The position numbers were made by a program, and so were the translations under genes. The notes beneath the pieces were generated by a model. The model worked only from the letters and a program-made list of their open reading frames with translations. It was not told the DNA's origin and made no database searches. This document shows positions 43,376 to 52,864 of a stretch of DNA of 64,000 nt, in pieces. How positions within the stretch are numbered: the stretch's first letter is position 1; each line of letters starts with the position of its first letter. The stretch is from Pseudomonadota bacterium (GTDB lineage Bacteria; Pseudomonadota; Gammaproteobacteria; Steroidobacterales; Woeseiaceae). Location of the stretch: positions 106,854 to 170,853 of the forward strand of contig JAQCGO010000003.1 of the NCBI GenBank assembly GCA_027618995.1, written 5' to 3'.

Positions 43376-45718
43376 GTGATACCAGACCTGCAAAAAGGCA
43401 CCGAGCTCGCCGGCCGGTATACGCTGCTGCGAACGCTTGGGACAGGTGCGGACACGCAAACCTGGCTGGCTACCGATCGCATGACGCGCGCATCAGTTGC
43501 TCTAAAGATTCGCCGCGGCGAGCGTATTTCACCCGAAGTATTGCGTAAGGAATGGCAAACCAGCCTGCGTCTTATGCATTCGCATATTGTGCGCGTGTTT
43601 GAATTCCACGATGAGCCGGGCTGCACGTTTTACAGCTTGCAGTTCATCGATGGCGCTGATATCAGCGCACTCAGCGGCGCGCCGTTGGCCGACGTTTTGC
43701 CGTCATTGGCCCTGCTGGCTGACGCGCTGCGATATGTGCATCGCAAAGGCCTCGTACATCGCGATATCAAAGCCAGCAATGTCCTGCTGGATCGAAACGG
43801 TGCGCCGTATCTGAGTGATTTTGGCGCAGCGATTTTTGCGGAGACGTCGGCGGCGGGTGGCTCGCTGATTGCGGCCAGCCCGCAGAGCATCGATGGCGCT
43901 GCGGCCAGCCCGGCGGACGACATTTTTGCGCTGGGCGGGCTGATCTACGAACTGGTCGCGGGCCGTTCGCCGTATTCGTCAGCAAATACGGCCGACGATA
44001 TTCGGCACGTGACTCCGCCAACCTTGATCGCGGCCTCGGGCGAGCCGATAAGCCCGGATCTGCAGGCATTGCTGCAGAGCATGCTGGCCATGGACGCTGC
44101 AGTCCGTCCGGATGCCGCCACTGTGGTGCAACAACTATCACTGGCCGGGTACCCGGGCGCCCCGGCGCCCGCGAAATACGTCGGCGGTGCGCCGACCGCG
44201 GGCCCGGAAATTATCGCGGCGCAAACACAGGCACGTTCAAAACCGACGCTCACTGTGAAGAGCGGCGCTGCGGCAACGACGCAGCGCTCATCCGGTATCA
44301 GTGCGCGTACTCTCGGCATCAGCCTGGCCGTCCTTTTGGTGATTCTGCTGGGCGTTGTTTTCATATTGCCGAACACGGTGCCGGACGATTCGGTTCCCGG
44401 GCAAGGCGAAGATGCCGTCGCAGGCACGACGGAAGTCGAACCGCAGGCAATAGAGGCTGCGCCGCCTGCCACGCCCGGGCGCGACGAGCGCGTGGTTTCC
44501 CGCGGTTCGACCGAAGCTATCCTGGGCCAGCTGCTGTCAATGATGGCAACACTTGAGAGCCGCGCCGTGCAGCGCTGGGGCGGGCTGCGTTACAAGCAGG
44601 CACAGGAAATCTATGCGGCGGGCGATGCCGCTTATCTGCTGCGCGACTACGCAACCGCCAGCGACCACTATCGCGAAGCGATCGCTGTGGTCGAGCCTCT
44701 GCTCGACGAGGTGGATGCGATATTCGCAAGTACTTATGCGGCAGCCGGACAGGCGCTCGAAAATGCAAATACGGCTGATGCGTTGCGCCTGTTTGAGTTG
44801 GCCGCCGCAATCAGTTCGGGCCATGCGGGTGCGCAGGCAGGTCTCGTGCGCGCCAGGAACCTCGACACTGTGCTGTCTTTGACTGAGCAGGGCCTCGCTT
44901 TCGAGAGAAATCTGGAGTTATCCGCGGCGCGGCAAAACTTCGAACGCGCGGTGACCATCGATCCTGAGTGGCAGCCTGCGCAGGATGCCCTTGCGCGCGT
45001 CACCGAGACCCTGCGGCAAATGGAATTCGACCTGCGCATGACCGAGGGATTGAATGCCATTGCGGATGCTCAGTTCGAGGTGGCGCGCGCCGCATTCCGC
45101 ATGGCGCAGGCACTCGATCCGGCGTCGCCTGAACCGGCTGACGGATTGATGCAGGTGGACCAGGAGATCCACCTCGATCGAATCCGGGTGCTGGAGCAGC
45201 AGGCACAAACGGAAGAGCAGAACGAACAATGGGAGACCGCTGTCGAAACCTACGAGAGCATTCTCGAGATTGATACCAACCTGGTTTTCGCACAGCAGGG
45301 GCTGGTTCGGGCGCAGCAAATGCTGGCGCTGCATAATCAACTCGAAACATACATCGCGGACCCGGACGGCCTGAGTGCGCCGGCAACCATGCGCAGGGCG
45401 ACCACGCTGGTCGTCGACATCACGCGCATGCCGGTCGTCGGTGCGCGCCTGGCCGACCAGCGCGATGAATTGTCGCGATTGCTGAAACGCGCCGCGACGC
45501 CCTTGCGCGTGGAGCTTGTGTCCGACAACGCCACCGATGTCTCGGTCTACAAAGTTGCTAAACTCGGCCACTTTGCTGCGCATGCGCTGGAGCTGCGGCC
45601 CGGCAAGTACGTCGTGGTTGGCAGCCGGCCAGGATTTCGCGATGTGCGCATCGAATTCAGTGTCGGGCCGGAAATTGAGGCAAAGCCAATAGTCGTTCGC
45701 TGTGAGGAAGCGATTTGA
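43376..45718 (+). CDS. Membrane Ser/Thr protein kinase with periplasmic TPR and PEGA-like domain
   Basis: A 780-residue PknB-type transmembrane kinase. The kinase domain (about 14-265) has 'LGTGADTQTW', K44, the RD-type catalytic loop 'LVHRDIKASN' and 'LSDFGAA'. A single TM helix ('LGISLAVLLVILLGVVFIL') lies near residue 315-332. The extracytoplasmic part has repeated helical TPR-like units ('AQEIYAAGDAAYLLRDYATA') and ends in a PEGA-like beta domain ('ALELRPGKYVVVGSRPGFRD'). Its GTG start is 9 nt after the lipoprotein gene and its stop overlaps the next gene. It should sense an envelope signal. Confidence 0.9.
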   Translation: MIPDLQKGTELAGRYTLLRTLGTGADTQTWLATDRMTRASVALKIRRGERISPEVLRKEWQTSLRLMHSHIVRVFEFHDEPGCTFYSLQFIDGADISALSGAPLADVLPSLALLADALRYVHRKGLVHRDIKASNVLLDRNGAPYLSDFGAAIFAETSAAGGSLIAASPQSIDGAAASPADDIFALGGLIYELVAGRSPYSSANTADDIRHVTPPTLIAASGEPISPDLQALLQSMLAMDAAVRPDAATVVQQLSLAGYPGAPAPAKYVGGAPTAGPEIIAAQTQARSKPTLTVKSGAAATTQRSSGISARTLGISLAVLLVILLGVVFILPNTVPDDSVPGQGEDAVAGTTEVEPQAIEAAPPATPGRDERVVSRGSTEAILGQLLSMMATLESRAVQRWGGLRYKQAQEIYAAGDAAYLLRDYATASDHYREAIAVVEPLLDEVDAIFASTYAAAGQALENANTADALRLFELAAAISSGHAGAQAGLVRARNLDTVLSLTEQGLAFERNLELSAARQNFERAVTIDPEWQPAQDALARVTETLRQMEFDLRMTEGLNAIADAQFEVARAAFRMAQALDPASPEPADGLMQVDQEIHLDRIRVLEQQAQTEEQNEQWETAVETYESILEIDTNLVFAQQGLVRAQQMLALHNQLETYIADPDGLSAPATMRRATTLVVDITRMPVVGARLADQRDELSRLLKRAATPLRVELVSDNATDVSVYKVAKLGHFAAHALELRPGKYVVVGSRPGFRDVRIEFSVGPEIEAKPIVVRCEEAI

Positions 45719-48141
45719 GATTCGATCACCTGATTATCAAGGACGTCAGCGGCGAACGACGCGTAGCTGCCGCCAGCCTGCCGTTGCGAGTCGGCACGGG
45801 CAGTGACTGTGAATTGCGCTTGCCAGGGCCTGGCGGTGGACCGATCGTACTGCTCGACTTGCTGGATGGTGCGCCATTTGTGCAGCCTGTTGGTCGAGAC
45901 TCCAGCCTGCAGCTTAATGGCGAGCCGTTGTTGTCGAGCCGCCGGCTCGAAAATGCCGATCAGCTTGAGTTTTTCGGCAGTCGAATTCGTGTGCTTGCAA
46001 CGGACGGGCGGCTGGTACTCGAGGTGCGCCTTGAGGACAGTGCCTACGTTACGCGTCCGCCAGAACTGGCCGATGCGGAGACAACGACCACCGAGGAGAC
46101 GATCGCGCCGACCGCTTTTCAGCGCGCCAGCAAAACGCAGGCAAGCATTGTCGTTGCACGCCACAGCCCCCTGAAAACCATCGTCGGTGGAGGTTTCGCC
46201 GTGTTATTGATCGCGTCCTATCTGCTCTTTAGTGCGCGGTCGATTCAGTTCGATGTTGACCCCGAGAGCCCCGACGATATTGATATCGCGGGCGGCTGGT
46301 TCCGTTTGCCGCTGGGTGATCGGGTGTTGTTGCGCCGTGGTGAGTACACGGCCAATGTCCGGAAGCAGGGCTACTATGACGTCAGTCAGGCATTCACGGT
46401 CGGCGACGAGCCGAGTATGCGCATTGTGCTAAGCATGCGTCGTTTGCCAGGCCGCCTCGCCGTTACCACGGAACCCTTCGTCGATGCTGCCGTGTCGATA
46501 GACAATGGACCCATCGGCAAGGTGCCCTATGGACCGACCGAACTGCAGCCCGGCCAGCACAGCATCAGCGTGCAGGCCGATCGCTTTTTGCCGTTTAATG
46601 ATGTCATCGAGATTGCCGGGCTGGACCGGGAAGAGCTGCTGACCGTGCAACTGGTACCGCGCTGGTCGGAGGTATCTCTGACCTCCGATCCCGCCGGCGC
46701 CTCGATATATGTTGGCGATGCCGAGCTGGGCGTAACCCCGGCTACGATCCAGTTGCTCGAAGGTACGCATCAAATCAGTGTCCTGCTGGCTGGTTTCGCC
46801 GCCTGGGATGGCGTCGTCACGGCAATCCCGAACGTCGCACAGACGTTGCCACCCATTGCCCTGCAGCCGGCCAATGCCAGGTTGCAGGTCACGACAATTC
46901 CGCGCGCTGCCAACGTGACCGTCGACGGTCGATACCGCGGTCAGTCGCCAATTACCCTGGCTTTGTCGCCCGGCGTCGACTACGTGATCGGTCTGTCCAA
47001 GGCGGGCTACGGTTCGGCGAGTCGCAAGGTACGCCTCGCGGCGGCGGCAAGCGACTCGATCACCGTGGATTTGTCGGCGCGTACGGGCAGGGTTACCGTC
47101 AACGTGTCGCCCGCCGATGCGGTGATCTACGTTGATGGCGCGGCGCGCAGCCAGGGTTCGGTCACGCTCGACCTGAGTTCGGCGCCGCACACGATTGTTG
47201 TGAAGAAAGACGGTCATGAAAGCTGGTCGCGCTCGGTGACGCCGCGACCCGGTTACCCGCAGACGCTGACCGCACATTTGCGCTCGCTGCAGGAAATCGA
47301 GCGCGCGAAAATTCAACTGACACAAAAGACGGCGTCGGAGCAGATTCTGCGACGCATCGAACCGGGCACTTTCACCATGGGCTCATCGCGTGCCGACCCG
47401 GGGCGTCGCGCCAACGAGGTACTGGTGCCGGTCACTATTTCACGGCCTTACCTGATCAGCGTGCGCGAGGTCAGTAACAAGGAGTTTTCGCAGTTCCGTG
47501 CCAATCACGATTCGGGCAGCGACATTCACGCGGCCATGTCCGGCGATGCGAACCCGGTTGCACAAGTGACCTGGGCCGATGCCGCTGAATATTGTAACTG
47601 GCTGAGCGCAATCGAAGGTCTGCAGCCCTCGTACGAGCAAAAGTTCGGTCAGTGGGCGGCGATTCGACCGCTGACCAATGGCTACCGGCTGCCGACTGAA
47701 GCCGAATGGGTCTGGGCCATTCGTTACTCCGGTACCGTAACAGCCCCCAGGTTTGCCTGGGGTCCGTCCATGCCGCCTAAAAACAGCTCCGGCAATTTTG
47801 CCGATCGTTCGGCCTCCGATCTCGTGCCAACCATCATCCCGCGATTCGATGACGGATTCGCCGCAACGGCGCCGACCGGCCTGTTCACGGCCAGCCCCAT
47901 CGGCATTTATGACGGTAGCGGCAACGTTGCTGAATGGGTCAATGACTTCTACAGTGTGCCGACACCGGGCCTGAAGACGCCGCTGCGGGATCCACTGGGT
48001 CCGGAACAGGGCCAAACCTACGTTATCCGTGGTTCATCGTGGCGGCACGCCGGCGAAACCGAGTTGCGGCTCAGTTACCGCGACTACGGTAACGAGGCAC
48101 GCAGCGACGTGGGTTTTCGCATAGCCCGGAACCTGGATTGA
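45715..48141 (+). CDS. FHA-like - TM - PEGA repeats - formylglycine-generating-enzyme-like protein
   Basis: An 808-residue protein with a TTG start inside the previous stop (TTGA). Residues about 1-110 look like a divergent FHA domain ('LPLRVGTGSDCELRLPGPGG'). One TM helix follows ('IVGGGFAVLLIASYLLFSA', about 160-178), then about five PEGA repeats (e.g. 'SDPAGASIYVGDAELGVTPA', 'VSPADAVIYVDGAARSQGSV'), then a SUMF1/FGE-sulfatase domain ('PGTFTMGSSRADPGRRANEV', 'GYRLPTEAEWVWAIRY', 'GIYDGSGNVAEWVNDFY'). FGE folds also serve as binding domains, so enzyme activity is not assured. A partner for the adjacent kinase is likely. Confidence 0.85.
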   Translation: MRFDHLIIKDVSGERRVAAASLPLRVGTGSDCELRLPGPGGGPIVLLDLLDGAPFVQPVGRDSSLQLNGEPLLSSRRLENADQLEFFGSRIRVLATDGRLVLEVRLEDSAYVTRPPELADAETTTTEETIAPTAFQRASKTQASIVVARHSPLKTIVGGGFAVLLIASYLLFSARSIQFDVDPESPDDIDIAGGWFRLPLGDRVLLRRGEYTANVRKQGYYDVSQAFTVGDEPSMRIVLSMRRLPGRLAVTTEPFVDAAVSIDNGPIGKVPYGPTELQPGQHSISVQADRFLPFNDVIEIAGLDREELLTVQLVPRWSEVSLTSDPAGASIYVGDAELGVTPATIQLLEGTHQISVLLAGFAAWDGVVTAIPNVAQTLPPIALQPANARLQVTTIPRAANVTVDGRYRGQSPITLALSPGVDYVIGLSKAGYGSASRKVRLAAAASDSITVDLSARTGRVTVNVSPADAVIYVDGAARSQGSVTLDLSSAPHTIVVKKDGHESWSRSVTPRPGYPQTLTAHLRSLQEIERAKIQLTQKTASEQILRRIEPGTFTMGSSRADPGRRANEVLVPVTISRPYLISVREVSNKEFSQFRANHDSGSDIHAAMSGDANPVAQVTWADAAEYCNWLSAIEGLQPSYEQKFGQWAAIRPLTNGYRLPTEAEWVWAIRYSGTVTAPRFAWGPSMPPKNSSGNFADRSASDLVPTIIPRFDDGFAATAPTGLFTASPIGIYDGSGNVAEWVNDFYSVPTPGLKTPLRDPLGPEQGQTYVIRGSSWRHAGETELRLSYRDYGNEARSDVGFRIARNLD

Positions 48142-48210: not shown

Positions 48211-48459
48211 ATGCGTTCGATGTTGCTGCTGATGTCTGTTGCATTGCTCGGTCTGCCGGCCTGGGCTCAGGAAGACGGTGTATCGGAGACGACGGCAACT
48301 GAGGATGCGACCGTCGAAACGGAGCCCGCTGTCGAGCCGGAGACAACGGAAGAGCCAGTCGTTGACGATGTGTTCTACCAGGATGTCGACGACAAGGACT
48401 TTCGTCCCAGCGAAGACATCCCGGCCGACCAATCCATTACCTTTCCCAGCGATATCTAG
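48211..48459 (+). CDS. Small secreted acidic protein
   Basis: An 82-residue protein with a signal peptide ('MRSMLLLMSVALLGLPAWAQ') and a mature part rich in Glu, Asp, Thr and Val ('ATVETEPAVEPETTEEPVV'). A strong SD (GAGGAGGG) precedes the ATG. No domain recognised. It sits 15 nt upstream of the MotA/TolQ-like gene and could be a periplasmic accessory or plug of that channel; this is inference from position. Confidence 0.65.
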   Translation: MRSMLLLMSVALLGLPAWAQEDGVSETTATEDATVETEPAVEPETTEEPVVDDVFYQDVDDKDFRPSEDIPADQSITFPSDI

Positions 48460-48474
48460 CGCAAACTGACACCT

Positions 48475-49275
48475 ATGAAAAAGAAGACAATACCGTTCGA
48501 ATTCGTTTACCAGCTTTTTGCGCTGATCATCGCGATTATTGTGGTGCATGCATATTATGTGTCGGTTGTGCTTCCGAATGCCAAACAAGCCATCGAAGAG
48601 CAGAACCTTGCAGCCAAGGCGGACCCGGACTACGTCCGTGAACGAGTGGTCTCGGTGCTCATCAAAGACCCTGAGCAGGAGTCGTGTTTCATTCTCGGCA
48701 TCTGGGCGTTCGCGATCATGGGATACAAGGGACTCCTGACGGTTCGCGAACGCCGCCTGCTGGATGTCGACCTCGTACCGGTGGCCGACGGTATGCGCAT
48801 ACTGCCGGAGGACACACGCGAATTCGCACGCCAGGTCGAGCAATTACCCGAAGATCGCCAGGATCTGCTGTTGCCACGCGCGCTGCTTGGCGCGCTGCGG
48901 CGCTTCAGTTCGACACGGAACATTCAGGACGTATCGAGTACCACGCACACAATTTGTGAAAATGAAGCGGAGCGACTTGAGTCCGAGTTATCCATGATTC
49001 GCTACATTTCGTGGGCAATTCCTTCCATCGGTTTTATCGGTACCGTGCGTGGTATCGGCGAGGCGCTCGCGCAAGCCGACAAAGCCATGCTGGGGGATAT
49101 CGCCGGTGTAACGCAGAGCCTGGGTGTGGCGTTCAACTCAACGTTCATCGCGTTGTTAATCAGTATTGTTCTGATGTTCCTTGTCCACCAGCTGCAGTTG
49201 TTGCAGGAGCGGCTGGTGTTTGACAGCGAAAATTACGTGAATGACAAGTTGATCCGCCACATGAAGGCGGACTAG
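48475..49275 (+). CDS. MotA/TolQ/ExbB-like proton channel subunit
   Basis: A 266-residue membrane protein with four predicted helices: about 14-33 ('FALIIAIIVVHAYYVSVVL'), 71-88 ('CFILGIWAFAIMGYKGLL'), 176-198 and 214-240. The last two contain the MotA_ExbB core 'SWAIPSIGFIGTVRGIGEAL' and 'SLGVAFNSTFIALLISIVLM', with the conserved Pro, GTV-GI and Thr positions. The cytoplasmic segment between helices 2 and 3 is large and charged. It is the only channel gene here and precedes two vWA proteins whose single TM helices look like MotB/ExbD stator helices. Confidence 0.85.
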   Translation: MKKKTIPFEFVYQLFALIIAIIVVHAYYVSVVLPNAKQAIEEQNLAAKADPDYVRERVVSVLIKDPEQESCFILGIWAFAIMGYKGLLTVRERRLLDVDLVPVADGMRILPEDTREFARQVEQLPEDRQDLLLPRALLGALRRFSSTRNIQDVSSTTHTICENEAERLESELSMIRYISWAIPSIGFIGTVRGIGEALAQADKAMLGDIAGVTQSLGVAFNSTFIALLISIVLMFLVHQLQLLQERLVFDSENYVNDKLIRHMKAD

Positions 49276-49287
49276 CGGCAACTCACA

Positions 49288-50655
49288 TTGAGCCTGCTAG
49301 CCGCACATTTTAACGATGCCGGGATTTCAGTTCTCGACAGTGAACGAATTCTGTATCGGGAACCCGGCTTCGCGTTGTTGGACGACGATGGGCTGAAGAC
49401 GGGACATGCGGCTTTCGCGAATGCCAGAATCAAGCCGCGGTGCATTCAAAACAGATTCTGGTCTGACCTGCAAACCACGCCCCTCGGCGATCGACGCTTC
49501 CACCACCTGAGTTCCGCTGATCTCGTGAGTCGGCAGCTTGAGCAGGTCTGGGCAGCAGTGGCACATCGTGGTGACCGACTGGTCGTGGCGGTACCCGCCT
49601 ATATGGGCAGCAATCAGCTCGCGCTCCTTCTTGGCATCGCTGCCGAGCTTGGAGTGCCGGTTGTTGCCATGGTCGATGCGGCGGTGGCGGCAACCCGGCG
49701 CGAATATCGAGACGCGGTGCCGGTGCACGTTGACCTCAGCCTGCATGCAACCATGCTCACCAGGATTGCGCAGCCAGGGCAGGCACAGGCAGAGCGCACC
49801 GAGATCGTGGAGGAAAGCGGGCTGCTGGCCTTGAACGACAGCTGGCTGCGGGCTATTGCGGAGGCTTTCGTGCAGCAGTCACGCTTCGATCCGCTGCACA
49901 CGGCAGAAACAGAACAGGTACTGCAGAACCAGTTGGCGTCCTGGATTTTCGCCGCGTCGGCCAACGATAGCGTCGAGATGGAAATCAACTATCACGGAAT
50001 TGTGCATACGGCGGTTATTGAGTCGCTGGCGTTGCTGGCCGCGGCGGCACCCGTCTATCAAAGCATCATCAGCAGGTTGCGTGCTCTGTATCGCGCCGAC
50101 GAGACGCCAGCGATACAGCTGAGCGATCGGGCGGCGCGAATGCCCGGCCTCGCCGACATGCTCGTGGCGCGCGTCGGTGGCCAGGTTTTTCTGCTCGAGG
50201 CCGGTGCGACGGCTCGTGGTCTGATCACCCGGTGTCGCGACATGACGTCAGCCGCGGGCGGCGTCAGCTTGTTGCGCACATTGCCCTGGGATCAGTCCGC
50301 GATCAGTGTGCAAAAAGTGCGGCGCGCCGAACAGGGCGGACGGCCGACGCACGTGTTATTCGAGCACGTTGCCTACGAGATCGACGACCAGCCGATCAAC
50401 ATGGGGTCGCAGCCGGAAAACGATGCACGCTGGATTGATTTCAGGACCAGCATGCCGGGCGTATCGCGCCGGCACTGCACATTGCAGCGCGAGAATGGCC
50501 AATGCGTCGTGCGGGATTTCAGCCGTTATGGCACGTTCCTTAATGGTCACGCCATCGATGGGTCTGCCGTATTGCAGGTCGGTGATCTCATCCGGCTTGG
50601 CGCACCGGGATTCGAATTGCGCCTGATCACGACGGAAGAGGCGCATGGCTCGTAA
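49288..50655 (+). CDS. Actin/Hsp70-like (ASKHA-type) protein with C-terminal FHA domain
   Basis: A 455-residue cytoplasmic protein with a TTG start. The first 340 residues resemble the ASKHA fold of Hsp70/actin-like proteins: N-terminal 'FNDAGISVLDSERILYREPG', then 'DRLVVAVPAYMGSNQLALLL' and 'VPVVAMVDAAVAATRREY' and a phosphate-2-like 'VHVDLSLHATMLTRI'. The C-terminal FHA domain is clear: 'GVSRRHCTLQRENGQCVVRD' and 'SRYGTFLNGHAIDGSAVLQV'. FHA domains bind phosphothreonine, linking this protein to the cluster kinases. The ASKHA call is moderate, the FHA call strong. Confidence 0.75.
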   Translation: MSLLAAHFNDAGISVLDSERILYREPGFALLDDDGLKTGHAAFANARIKPRCIQNRFWSDLQTTPLGDRRFHHLSSADLVSRQLEQVWAAVAHRGDRLVVAVPAYMGSNQLALLLGIAAELGVPVVAMVDAAVAATRREYRDAVPVHVDLSLHATMLTRIAQPGQAQAERTEIVEESGLLALNDSWLRAIAEAFVQQSRFDPLHTAETEQVLQNQLASWIFAASANDSVEMEINYHGIVHTAVIESLALLAAAAPVYQSIISRLRALYRADETPAIQLSDRAARMPGLADMLVARVGGQVFLLEAGATARGLITRCRDMTSAAGGVSLLRTLPWDQSAISVQKVRRAEQGGRPTHVLFEHVAYEIDDQPINMGSQPENDARWIDFRTSMPGVSRRHCTLQRENGQCVVRDFSRYGTFLNGHAIDGSAVLQVGDLIRLGAPGFELRLITTEEAHGS

Positions 50656-51742
50656 GCGGCGCCCATTCGAAGTATTCAGCATGTCGTTTCTCGACTGCAT
50701 GAGCTGCGGCTTTGGTGCGGTGATTCTGCTTTTCATGATCATCAATGCGCAAGTCAAGCAGACCACGGAAGACGACCCGAGCAATTTGATGGCCGAGACC
50801 AGGAAACTGGAGATCGAGATTCTCGACGGACGCAAGGATCTCGTGCTCGCAAAAAATACCGTGGAGCAGCTCGACACCGAGCGCGACACCGCGGAAGGAA
50901 AAATCGCGCAGATCATTGCGTTGATCCAAAAACTGCAGGCCGAACTTGCGCAGTACGACGACGATACTCTGGCCAAGGTCGAGCGCGTCGAACAGCTGGA
51001 AAGCGATATTGAATCGTTGCAGGAAGAGGTCAAGCGTCTGCTTGCCATGGCGGCCGAGCAACAGGCGGACGGCAACAAACTGCGCGAATTCCAGGGCGAC
51101 GGTGACCGCCAGTACCTGACGGGCCTCAGGCTGCGTGGACGGCATACCCTCATTCTTGTCGACCGATCTGCCAGCATGCTCGACGATACGATTGTCAACA
51201 TCATTCGACGGCGCAACATGAGCCTCAAGGACAAGCTGGCGGCCGTCAAATGGCGTCAGGTGGTCGCCAGCGTCGATTGGCTGACGACGCAGTTCGAGCC
51301 AGGTAGCGCCTTCCAGATATACATGTTTAATAACGAGGCTGTGCCGGTTATCAAAGGCACAGAAGGCGTATGGCTGAAGGCCGATGATGCAACGCAAATC
51401 AACGAGGCCATCCGTGTTTTGCGCCTCACGCCGCCCGAGAAAGGTACCAACATGAAGGCGGCCTACGAGATTGCGGCGCAGCTGTCACCGCGTCCCGATA
51501 ACATCATTCTGTTTGTTGACGGCCTGCCGACCATGGACGGGCCGACGGCTGATCGGAGTACGGTCAGCGGGCAGGAACGTTTTAATCTGCATTTTCGGGC
51601 GATACGTGAGCTGCCATCCGGTATCCCGGTCAATGTTTTCCTGTATCCGATGGAAGGGGACTACGATGCGCCGATTCTTTACTGGCAGCTGGCGTTTCAA
51701 ACCAGCGGCGCGATGATAAGTGTCAGTCGTGACTGGCCGTAG
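50645..51742 (+). CDS. vWA protein with MotB/ExbD-like N-terminal helix and coiled coil (first copy)
   Basis: A 365-residue protein. A basic N-terminus is followed by one TM helix, 'FSMSFLDCMSCGFGAVILLF', with Asp17 at its start, in a context like the proton-carrying Asp of MotB or ExbD. Residues about 45-140 are a coiled coil ('KVERVEQLESDIESLQEEVK'). A vWA domain follows with a MIDAS motif 'LILVDRSASM' (D173, S175, S177) and 'EKGTNMKAAYEIAAQ' for the MIDAS Thr. The vWA should lie in the periplasm and bind a metal-dependent ligand. The start overlaps the FHA gene by 11 nt. Confidence 0.85.
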   Translation: MARKRRPFEVFSMSFLDCMSCGFGAVILLFMIINAQVKQTTEDDPSNLMAETRKLEIEILDGRKDLVLAKNTVEQLDTERDTAEGKIAQIIALIQKLQAELAQYDDDTLAKVERVEQLESDIESLQEEVKRLLAMAAEQQADGNKLREFQGDGDRQYLTGLRLRGRHTLILVDRSASMLDDTIVNIIRRRNMSLKDKLAAVKWRQVVASVDWLTTQFEPGSAFQIYMFNNEAVPVIKGTEGVWLKADDATQINEAIRVLRLTPPEKGTNMKAAYEIAAQLSPRPDNIILFVDGLPTMDGPTADRSTVSGQERFNLHFRAIRELPSGIPVNVFLYPMEGDYDAPILYWQLAFQTSGAMISVSRDWP

Positions 51743-51760
51743 GATGATGGAGCGCCATAA

Positions 51761-52756
51761 GTGAGACGTCGCCGCAATATTGAAGCATTCAGCCTGTCGT
51801 TCCTCGACTGCATCTGTTGCGGCTTTGGCGCAATCATTCTGTTGCTTGTGCTGAGCAAAATCTACGAGCCAGTTATCATCGAAAAAACCCAGGATGATCT
51901 GGAATCACTGATTGCCTTGTTGCAGCAGCAGCTGTTCGACATTCGCGGCCAGACCACGGTACTGAATCGCGATCTCGAGGATGTACGCATGCAGACCTCC
52001 GACAGCAAGCTGCAACTCGCACGGCTACAGGGCGAGCTCAGTACGGTGCGCGGTCAATATAAGGCAACCATCCGTGAATCCGAAGCAGAGATCGACGAGG
52101 GCGCGCTGCGAGTAACGAAGCAGCGGCTGACCGAAGAGATGCGCAGGCTCGCGCCTTATTATCGGCGAGCCTCGGATGATGCGGTAGCCGGTATCCCGGT
52201 AGACAGTGAGTACGTCATATTCATCGTCGATACGTCAGGCAGCATGCAGCAGTACAACTGGGAACGGGCGATACAAAAGCTCAACGAGACACTGGATGTC
52301 TATCCGCAGGTCAAGGGCATTCAGATCATGAATGACAACGGCAGCTTCATGTTTCAGCAGTACGCCGGCAAGTGGATCCCGGACACGCCGGGACGTCGCG
52401 AGGCCATTATCAACACCATGCGTAACTGGCGGCCGTTCAGCGACAGTAACCCGGTCGACGGCATCATTTATGCGATCAGTACATTCTGGTCGGCCGATAA
52501 GAAGATCAGTGTTTACGTATTCGGCGATGAATTCAGCGGCGGATCGGTAGAAAATGTCGTGCGCCAGATTGATTCGGTGAACCGAGCCGATGCCGCAGGA
52601 AATCGGATGGTGCGCATTCATGCTGTGGGCTTCCCGTACTTTTTCGAGGGTGGTCGCGAAATTCCCGAAACGGCGCGCCGCTTCGCGCAACTGATGCGCA
52701 TTCTTTGCGATCGTAATGGCGGCACTTTCGTCGCGTTGTCTGATCCCCGCAGCTAA
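51761..52756 (+). CDS. vWA protein with MotB/ExbD-like N-terminal helix and coiled coil (second copy)
   Basis: A 331-residue protein with a GTG start 18 nt after the first vWA gene. It has the same plan: basic N-terminus, TM helix 'FSLSFLDCICCGFGAIILLL' with Asp16, coiled coil (about 43-130) and a vWA domain with the canonical MIDAS 'VIFIVDTSGSM' (D157, S159, S161). Outside the TM signature the two vWA proteins are quite divergent, suggesting distinct, possibly heteromeric roles. It ends the cluster. Confidence 0.87.
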   Translation: MRRRRNIEAFSLSFLDCICCGFGAIILLLVLSKIYEPVIIEKTQDDLESLIALLQQQLFDIRGQTTVLNRDLEDVRMQTSDSKLQLARLQGELSTVRGQYKATIRESEAEIDEGALRVTKQRLTEEMRRLAPYYRRASDDAVAGIPVDSEYVIFIVDTSGSMQQYNWERAIQKLNETLDVYPQVKGIQIMNDNGSFMFQQYAGKWIPDTPGRREAIINTMRNWRPFSDSNPVDGIIYAISTFWSADKKISVYVFGDEFSGGSVENVVRQIDSVNRADAAGNRMVRIHAVGFPYFFEGGREIPETARRFAQLMRILCDRNGGTFVALSDPRS

Positions 52757-52831
52757 ACGGCCACAATTCATCACGATTGATCGCTGACCTGGCACGATGC
52801 TGGCGCATCGCGTGAGGAGAACATTGGCGTC

Positions 52832-52864
52832 GGCTCTGACTCCCTCATAAAATGCTCTGACCCC
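52832..52864. repeat. REP-like paired GCTCTGAC motifs
   Basis: GGCTCTGAC (52832-52840) and GCTCTGACCCC (52854-52864) are direct copies of a core whose reverse complement, GGGGTCAGAGC, also occurs at 21946-21956. The layout resembles degenerate REP units of the RAYT type. No transposase gene is nearby. Confidence 0.4.

Follow-up and report, generated by a model that had tools for sequence, protein, structure and literature searches.

A tandem pair of vWA proteins beside an orphan MotA/TolQ/ExbB-like gene as the predicted axle of a 5:2-type proton motor

Introduction

5:2 proton motors power flagella, nutrient import, gliding, and phage defence. In the 64,000-nucleotide stretch of a Woeseiaceae genome analysed here (the window), a gene for a MotA/TolQ/ExbB-like channel subunit at 48475 lies close to two consecutive genes for vWA proteins, here called vWA1 and vWA2, and the question raised by the locus is whether those two proteins fill the pore of the channel, as the B-subunit of a stator does, or do something else at the membrane. 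A reading of the sequence alone had proposed them as heteromeric stator B-subunits for that channel. Here we present a comparative analysis of the locus and its relatives, from which we conclude that vWA1 and vWA2 are very probably the ion-carrying axle of a proton motor of the 5:2 type, with the 48475 protein as its ring.

The central idea is not new, since it was already predicted in PMC12204202 (Mol Biol Evol 2025). That paper describes TPH-vWA proteins from Proteobacteria and Verrucomicrobia, encoded beside tolQ homologues without tolR or exbD and “predominantly found in heterologous pairs”, and predicts from AF3 models that the pairs are the dimeric partner of TolQ-like pentamers. In those models a conserved transpore-helix Asp is encircled by a ring of TolQ-like Thr residues, and the Asp/Thr ion-path signature is stated there for the TPH-vWA kind; a separate family of SHLS-type vWA transducers is described as binding from the side, like TolA and TonB. 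What is added here is a conservation test of Asp versus Cys, a bookkeeping of orphan genes, and the operon.

Results

The genes between 43376 and 52756 all lie on one strand (Table 1), and because the gaps between them are only 12-70 bases and two junctions overlap, the cluster reads as a single operon. The kinase has a TM segment, an extracytoplasmic TPR region, and intact HRD and DFG motifs, while its neighbor combines one TM segment, four PEGA repeats, and an FGE-sulfatase-like domain with an N-terminus that looks FHA-like by eye. The FHA domain of the 49288 protein carries the SxxH and N motifs. The fold of its N-terminal domain is uncertain; an Hsp70/actin-like identity, suggested by eye only, was set aside, as it had no Pfam support and the PDB profile matches were to FHA, with Hsp70 only at E 0.11.

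Table 1. Features of the operon and its downstream border in window coordinates
Feature	Position	Strand	Evidence
Ser/Thr protein kinase	43376..45718	+	PF00069 104 bits, TPR
PEGA-FGE membrane protein	45715..48141	+	PF08308 135 bits, PF03781 124 bits
Small secreted protein, 82 aa, signal peptide	48211..48459	+	conserved tail in FGE-MotA gaps
MotA/TolQ/ExbB-like channel subunit	48475..49275	+	PF01618 51.9 bits, AF2, Foldseek, conserved Thr
Cytoplasmic protein, C-terminal FHA domain	49288..50655	+	PF00498 49.8 bits
vWA1, 365 aa	50645..51742	+	ORF, alignment, AF2, Foldseek
vWA1 Asp helix	50681-50767	+	AF2, alignment
vWA1 D17 codon	50693-50695	+	AF2, alignment
vWA1 stalk helix	50777-51067	+	AF2, Foldseek
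vWA1 vWA/MIDAS domain	51143-51739	+	AF2, Foldseek
vWA2, 331 aa, architecture as vWA1	51761..52756	+	ORF, alignment, profile-profile
vWA2 D16 codon	51806-51808	+	ORF, alignment, profile-profile
Scar of lost glycine-zipper/OmpA-domain gene, 'ASREENIGVGS'	52805..52836	+	comparison with sister locus L071

The N-termini of the two vWA proteins are MARKRRPFEVFSMSFLDCMSCGFGAVILLFMIIN (vWA1) and MRRRRNIEAFSLSFLDCICCGFGAIILLLVLSK (vWA2). The common motif that the sequence-only reading had picked out in them, FSxSFLDCxxCGFGAxILL, is present in both ORF translations, and in both an Asp opens the single N-terminal helix (D17 in vWA1, D16 in vWA2). Given that tandem motif pairs recur in most of 60 relatives, with vWA1 matched in 56 of the 60, the sharing is far beyond chance. 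Wherever a locus holds both genes, vWA1 precedes vWA2 on the same strand (160/160). The same reading had called the two copies divergent outside the helix, which needs correcting in one respect: they are paralogues along their whole length (profile-profile 99.8%, E 7e-30, 19% identity).

Two residues of this helix could be the functional one, the Asp or the Cys that follows it at D+4. Across distinct homologues, distant members included, the Asp is found in 143/143 vWA1 sequences, some of which came from a search whose pattern included FLDx[MI][ST]C, and in 152/152 vWA2 sequences, which were never pattern-selected; an order-wide sample gave 41/41 and 40/40. The Cys is kept in 135/143 vWA1 and 138/152 vWA2 sequences, and the remainder, a divergent clade retrieved by pattern-free search, has Ser. 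Because the Asp is invariant and the Cys gives way to Ser in divergent homologues, and also in the sister family described below, we reject the Cys as the functional residue and take the Asp as the key one, as first read.

Several members of the L182-L194 clade replace the D+4 Cys and, in vWA2, also the D+7 Gly (SFLDIISSAFAAVVLL), and such replacements help to tell essential from incidental helix residues.

The ring candidate, the 48475 product, scores above the PF01618 cut-off and gives an AF2 model of pLDDT 89 whose fold is matched best in the PDB by ExbB and TolQ and less well by MotA and ZorA. Its residues T190 (49042-49044) and T223 (49141-49143) are invariant in 126/126 sequences and share columns with the conserved Thr of the genome's own ExbB/TolQ paralogues; we take them to be the pore Thr residues known from the family. 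In MotAB, ExbBD, and TolQR alike, an Asp/Thr pair is the conserved signature of the ion path. A signalling or gating assembly that conducts nothing, in which the ring binds the vWA helices and Asp and Thr are merely structural, would suit the kinase, FHA, and MIDAS partners, which resemble signalling parts, and the near-invariant Cys, which suggests roles besides proton transfer; we nevertheless hold it to be improbable, since neither half of the ion-path signature varies here.

If vWA1 and vWA2 are the axle, the channel gene should have no other, and the gene counts bear on this point. Counting the one at 48475, there are five MotA/ExbB genes in the genome, and its four ExbD genes all adjoin the other four; profile searches found no ExbD or MotB gene beside the 48475 gene and no MotB_plug gene in the genome. 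An ExbD ORF is likewise absent from all 179 fetched loci, in which MotB-profile matches are confined to OmpA domains. A downstream 'MotB-like' gene was considered as a rival axle and rejected: it matches in the OmpA domain only, its product consisting of signal peptide, glycine zipper, and OmpA domain without the Asp helix. These counts also weigh on a second alternative, in which the vWA proteins are force transducers bound to the outer edge of the ring like TolA and TonB, and an ExbD encoded elsewhere is the axle. There are indeed ExbD genes elsewhere in the genome, and the SHLS-type transducers of PMC12204202 are a vWA family of such a kind. However, the SHLS motif and the TM-helix His, features of TolA/TonB-like transducers, occur in 0/145 vWA1 and 0/154 vWA2 sequences, the Asp does not vary, each ExbD gene of the genome adjoins an ExbB/TolQ gene of its own, and no ExbD lies in any of the 179 loci, so that we regard side-binding as very unlikely.

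The helix had been likened to those of both MotB and ExbD, and profile-profile comparison (hhalign) gives a modest similarity to MotB, with the Asp in register, and none above chance to ExbD. Against MotB, the helices of vWA1 and vWA2 align ungapped, Asp on Asp, at a probability of 22-44% (with broad profiles 43% for vWA1 and 22% for vWA2), and 3-4 of 200 shuffled MotB profiles score as high (4/200 each for the broad profiles; about 2%), the null model being 200 column shuffles that preserve the TM block. The positive control, ExbD against MotB, reached 70% with 0/200 shuffles as good, and the remaining TM helices of the operon gave lower MotB scores than the Asp helices. Against ExbD the Asps align, yet the scores fall within the shuffle range (26/200 and 15/200). 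Since the MotB alignment is in register but ExbD stays at the level of the shuffles, homology to the MotB helix is suggested, not proven, by these profiles; they offer modest support, and the weight of the argument rests on the invariance of the Asp and on gene context. The vWA proteins have no Pfam match to ExbD (PF02472) or to MotB_plug, and they carry the vWA domain where MotB has its C-terminal OmpA-like domain. That a short TM segment with modest profile scores merely converged on a MotB-like helix, in proteins that are no more than membrane-anchored vWA chaperone or adhesion factors, is hardly credible given how strictly they accompany a MotA-like gene that has no ExbD of its own, and given that it is exactly the Asp that is invariant.

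Behind the helix follow a long helical stalk, read as a coiled coil from the sequence alone, and a MIDAS-bearing vWA domain. The AF2 model of vWA1 has helices at residues 13-41 and 45-141, and its vWA fold begins near residue 167; confidence is low at residues 1-13 and in the hinge at 136-158. A rise of 1.5 Å per residue would give the stalk a length of about 145 Å. Foldseek matches of the head are vWA/integrin-I domains, and the MIDAS DxSxS is invariant in both proteins, vWA1 also retaining T268 and D292. These were fold searches; when the vWA and MotA-like profiles were run against PDB sequences, they had found coiled-coil matches or none. Because the N-terminus is basic, the positive-inside rule suggests that it stays inside (N-in), which would place the head in the periplasm.

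Across an order, genomes share the kinase, PEGA-FGE, ring, and both vWA genes, and the same set is found in 80 named loci. Among these are the isolate Povalibacter uvarum DSM 26723 (L150) and MAGs labelled Acidobacteriota, Desulfobacterales, and Myxococcales, with the caveats that a MAG may be mislabelled and that in several cases the contig breaks off within the operon. Divergent loci lack the FHA gene. Profile matches at E<=0.001, some of them weak and unrelated, were found for vWA1 in 30/274 class-level genomes and for vWA2 in 17/299 phylum-level genomes. We found no description in the literature of this operon, with its kinase, PEGA-FGE, FPxDI, and FHA proteins and a lineage-specific OmpA protein.

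The FPxDI protein is the 82-aa one, which has a signal peptide, an acidic spacer, and the C-terminal tail FRPSEDIPADQSITFPSDI (tail codons 48400-48456). Each of the 110 FGE-MotA gaps examined contains an ORF that ends in P-x-[D/N]-I at the stop, an ending required by the search; a first scan gave 102 of these ORFs, and a wider scan gave the remaining 8. Among the 102, conservation extends to tail positions that the search left free: F/Y at -5 (99), I/V at -13 (91), F at -19 (89), and P at -17 (85). Only 121 of the 20,462 ORFs of at least 45 aa in these loci end in this way, and presumably most of these are the small-secreted-protein genes themselves. The tail consensus, PSExIxADxxIxFPx[D/N]I-COOH, is nearly invariant, whereas the upstream part is hypervariable and acidic. 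In divergent clades (e.g. L167, L273, and L274) the protein shrinks to a hydrophobic segment and about 15 residues; the mature form in such clades may be about 16 residues only. Our literature searches returned no description of a small secreted protein with an FPx[D/N]I tail, and for its partner one can only guess at the vWA MIDAS or the pore mouth. That a kinase-regulated proton motor acts on it, with the MIDAS heads or the pore mouth engaging the tail ...D-S-x-[I/V/A]-x-F-P-x-[D/N]-I-COOH, is a tentative idea that we consider possible rather than likely; if true, the small secreted protein would add a new kind of substrate or plug to such motors.

Downstream of vWA2, 50 of the 117 loci with room for it hold a gene for a protein with signal peptide, glycine zipper, and OmpA domain. 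The window keeps only a 32-base scar, while the gene is intact from about 10230 in L071, whose vWA1 is 91% identical to that of the window. A search of the rest of the genome gave no full copy, only one OmpA-domain match of 36% identity. The gene thus appears lineage-specific and deleted in this genome, with an assembly artefact possible.

Discussion

The proposal of vWA1 and vWA2 as stator B-subunits for the 48475 channel is thus supported, as a prediction, by the invariance of Asp and Thr, an orphan ring gene, and the obligate pairing of the two proteins, this last being the reason to call the axle heteromeric. Its observed basis is the gene content, the invariant Asp, Thr, and MIDAS residues, the channel gene with no ExbD or MotB beside it, and the single-chain folds. 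Two observations count against it: the near-invariant Cys at D+4, which it leaves out of account, and the profile similarity, which for MotB is modest and for ExbD does not exceed chance.

In the model that we infer for complex formation, stoichiometry, and proton flow, the 48475 protein would form a pentameric ring and vWA1 and vWA2 the ion-carrying axle of a 5:2-type motor, a heterodimer with one helix of each within the pentamer pore. The pore Thr ring would hand protons on to the Asp of the helix as ring and axle rotate relative to each other, and the stalk of ~97 residues would transmit the rotation to the periplasmic MIDAS heads. The heads would then grip a partner, perhaps the cell wall, the outer membrane, the PEGA-FGE protein, or the FPxDI-tailed peptide, and the kinase and FHA-bearing partners would probably gate the motor through phosphorylation.

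Several known systems share parts of this design. By description, vWA1 and vWA2 can be likened to TPH-vWA proteins, whose reference proteins are from Idiomarina: here and in PMC12204202 (Fig. 4c,d) there are a heterologous vWA pair, an adjacent tolQ-like gene with no tolR or exbD, a conserved Asp in the transpore helix, and a conserved Thr in the ring. The main text of that paper mentions no kinase, Hsp70, or sulfatase, and has 'FHA' only within FhaC. The flagellar stators MotAB and PomAB have a like ring fold and, in MotB, an Asp that aligns with the Asp at the start of the vWA helix, but in place of a plug and OmpA domain there is here a long stalk and vWA head, the OmpA domain being encoded by a separate, lineage-specific gene. 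ExbBD and TolQR are structurally closest in the ring, with the pore Thr conserved, whereas the vWA proteins lack the ExbD/TolR C-terminal domain and their helix resembles that of ExbD only at chance level. ZorAB of Zorya defence is also a 5:2 motor with an unusual periplasmic part, and its ZorA is a weak match of the 48475 ring, but here kinase, FHA, and PEGA-FGE partners stand in place of the Zorya effectors. A label of anti-phage defence was rejected: the kinase matches PADLOC PD-T4-6/MAD6 only as kinases in general do, the similarity to ZorA is weak, and our searches found no plasmid homologues of vWA1 and no phage homologues of the ring. In the Bacteroidota T9SS/gliding machinery, GldLM is likewise a 5:2 motor encoded with an FGE-fold envelope protein, GldK, which the PEGA-FGE protein recalls; yet the 45715..48141 product scores 87 bits against a GldK cut-off of 350, below the 124 bits of the generic FGE domain, and the similarity appears to be that of a generic FGE only.

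A sister system (L270:5516-8816 and L272:1395-10949) combines a MotA-like gene with a PP2C phosphatase, trypsin-like protein(s), and a single Asp-helix protein with a vWA-like head, in which SALDLFASAMGAF retains the Asp and has Ser at the place of the Cys. The L272 copy also holds a Ser/Thr kinase. Since phosphatase or kinase genes accompany the motor genes here too, phospho-signalling coupled to a 5:2 motor is suggested as a recurring theme.

The locus lends comparative support of an independent kind, from Gammaproteobacteria as well as other groups, to the prediction already in print. The parts now named (kinase, FHA partner, PEGA-FGE protein, and FPxDI peptide) are needed to learn what the motor is for. 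New output heads of this kind would show further uses of 5:2 proton motors.
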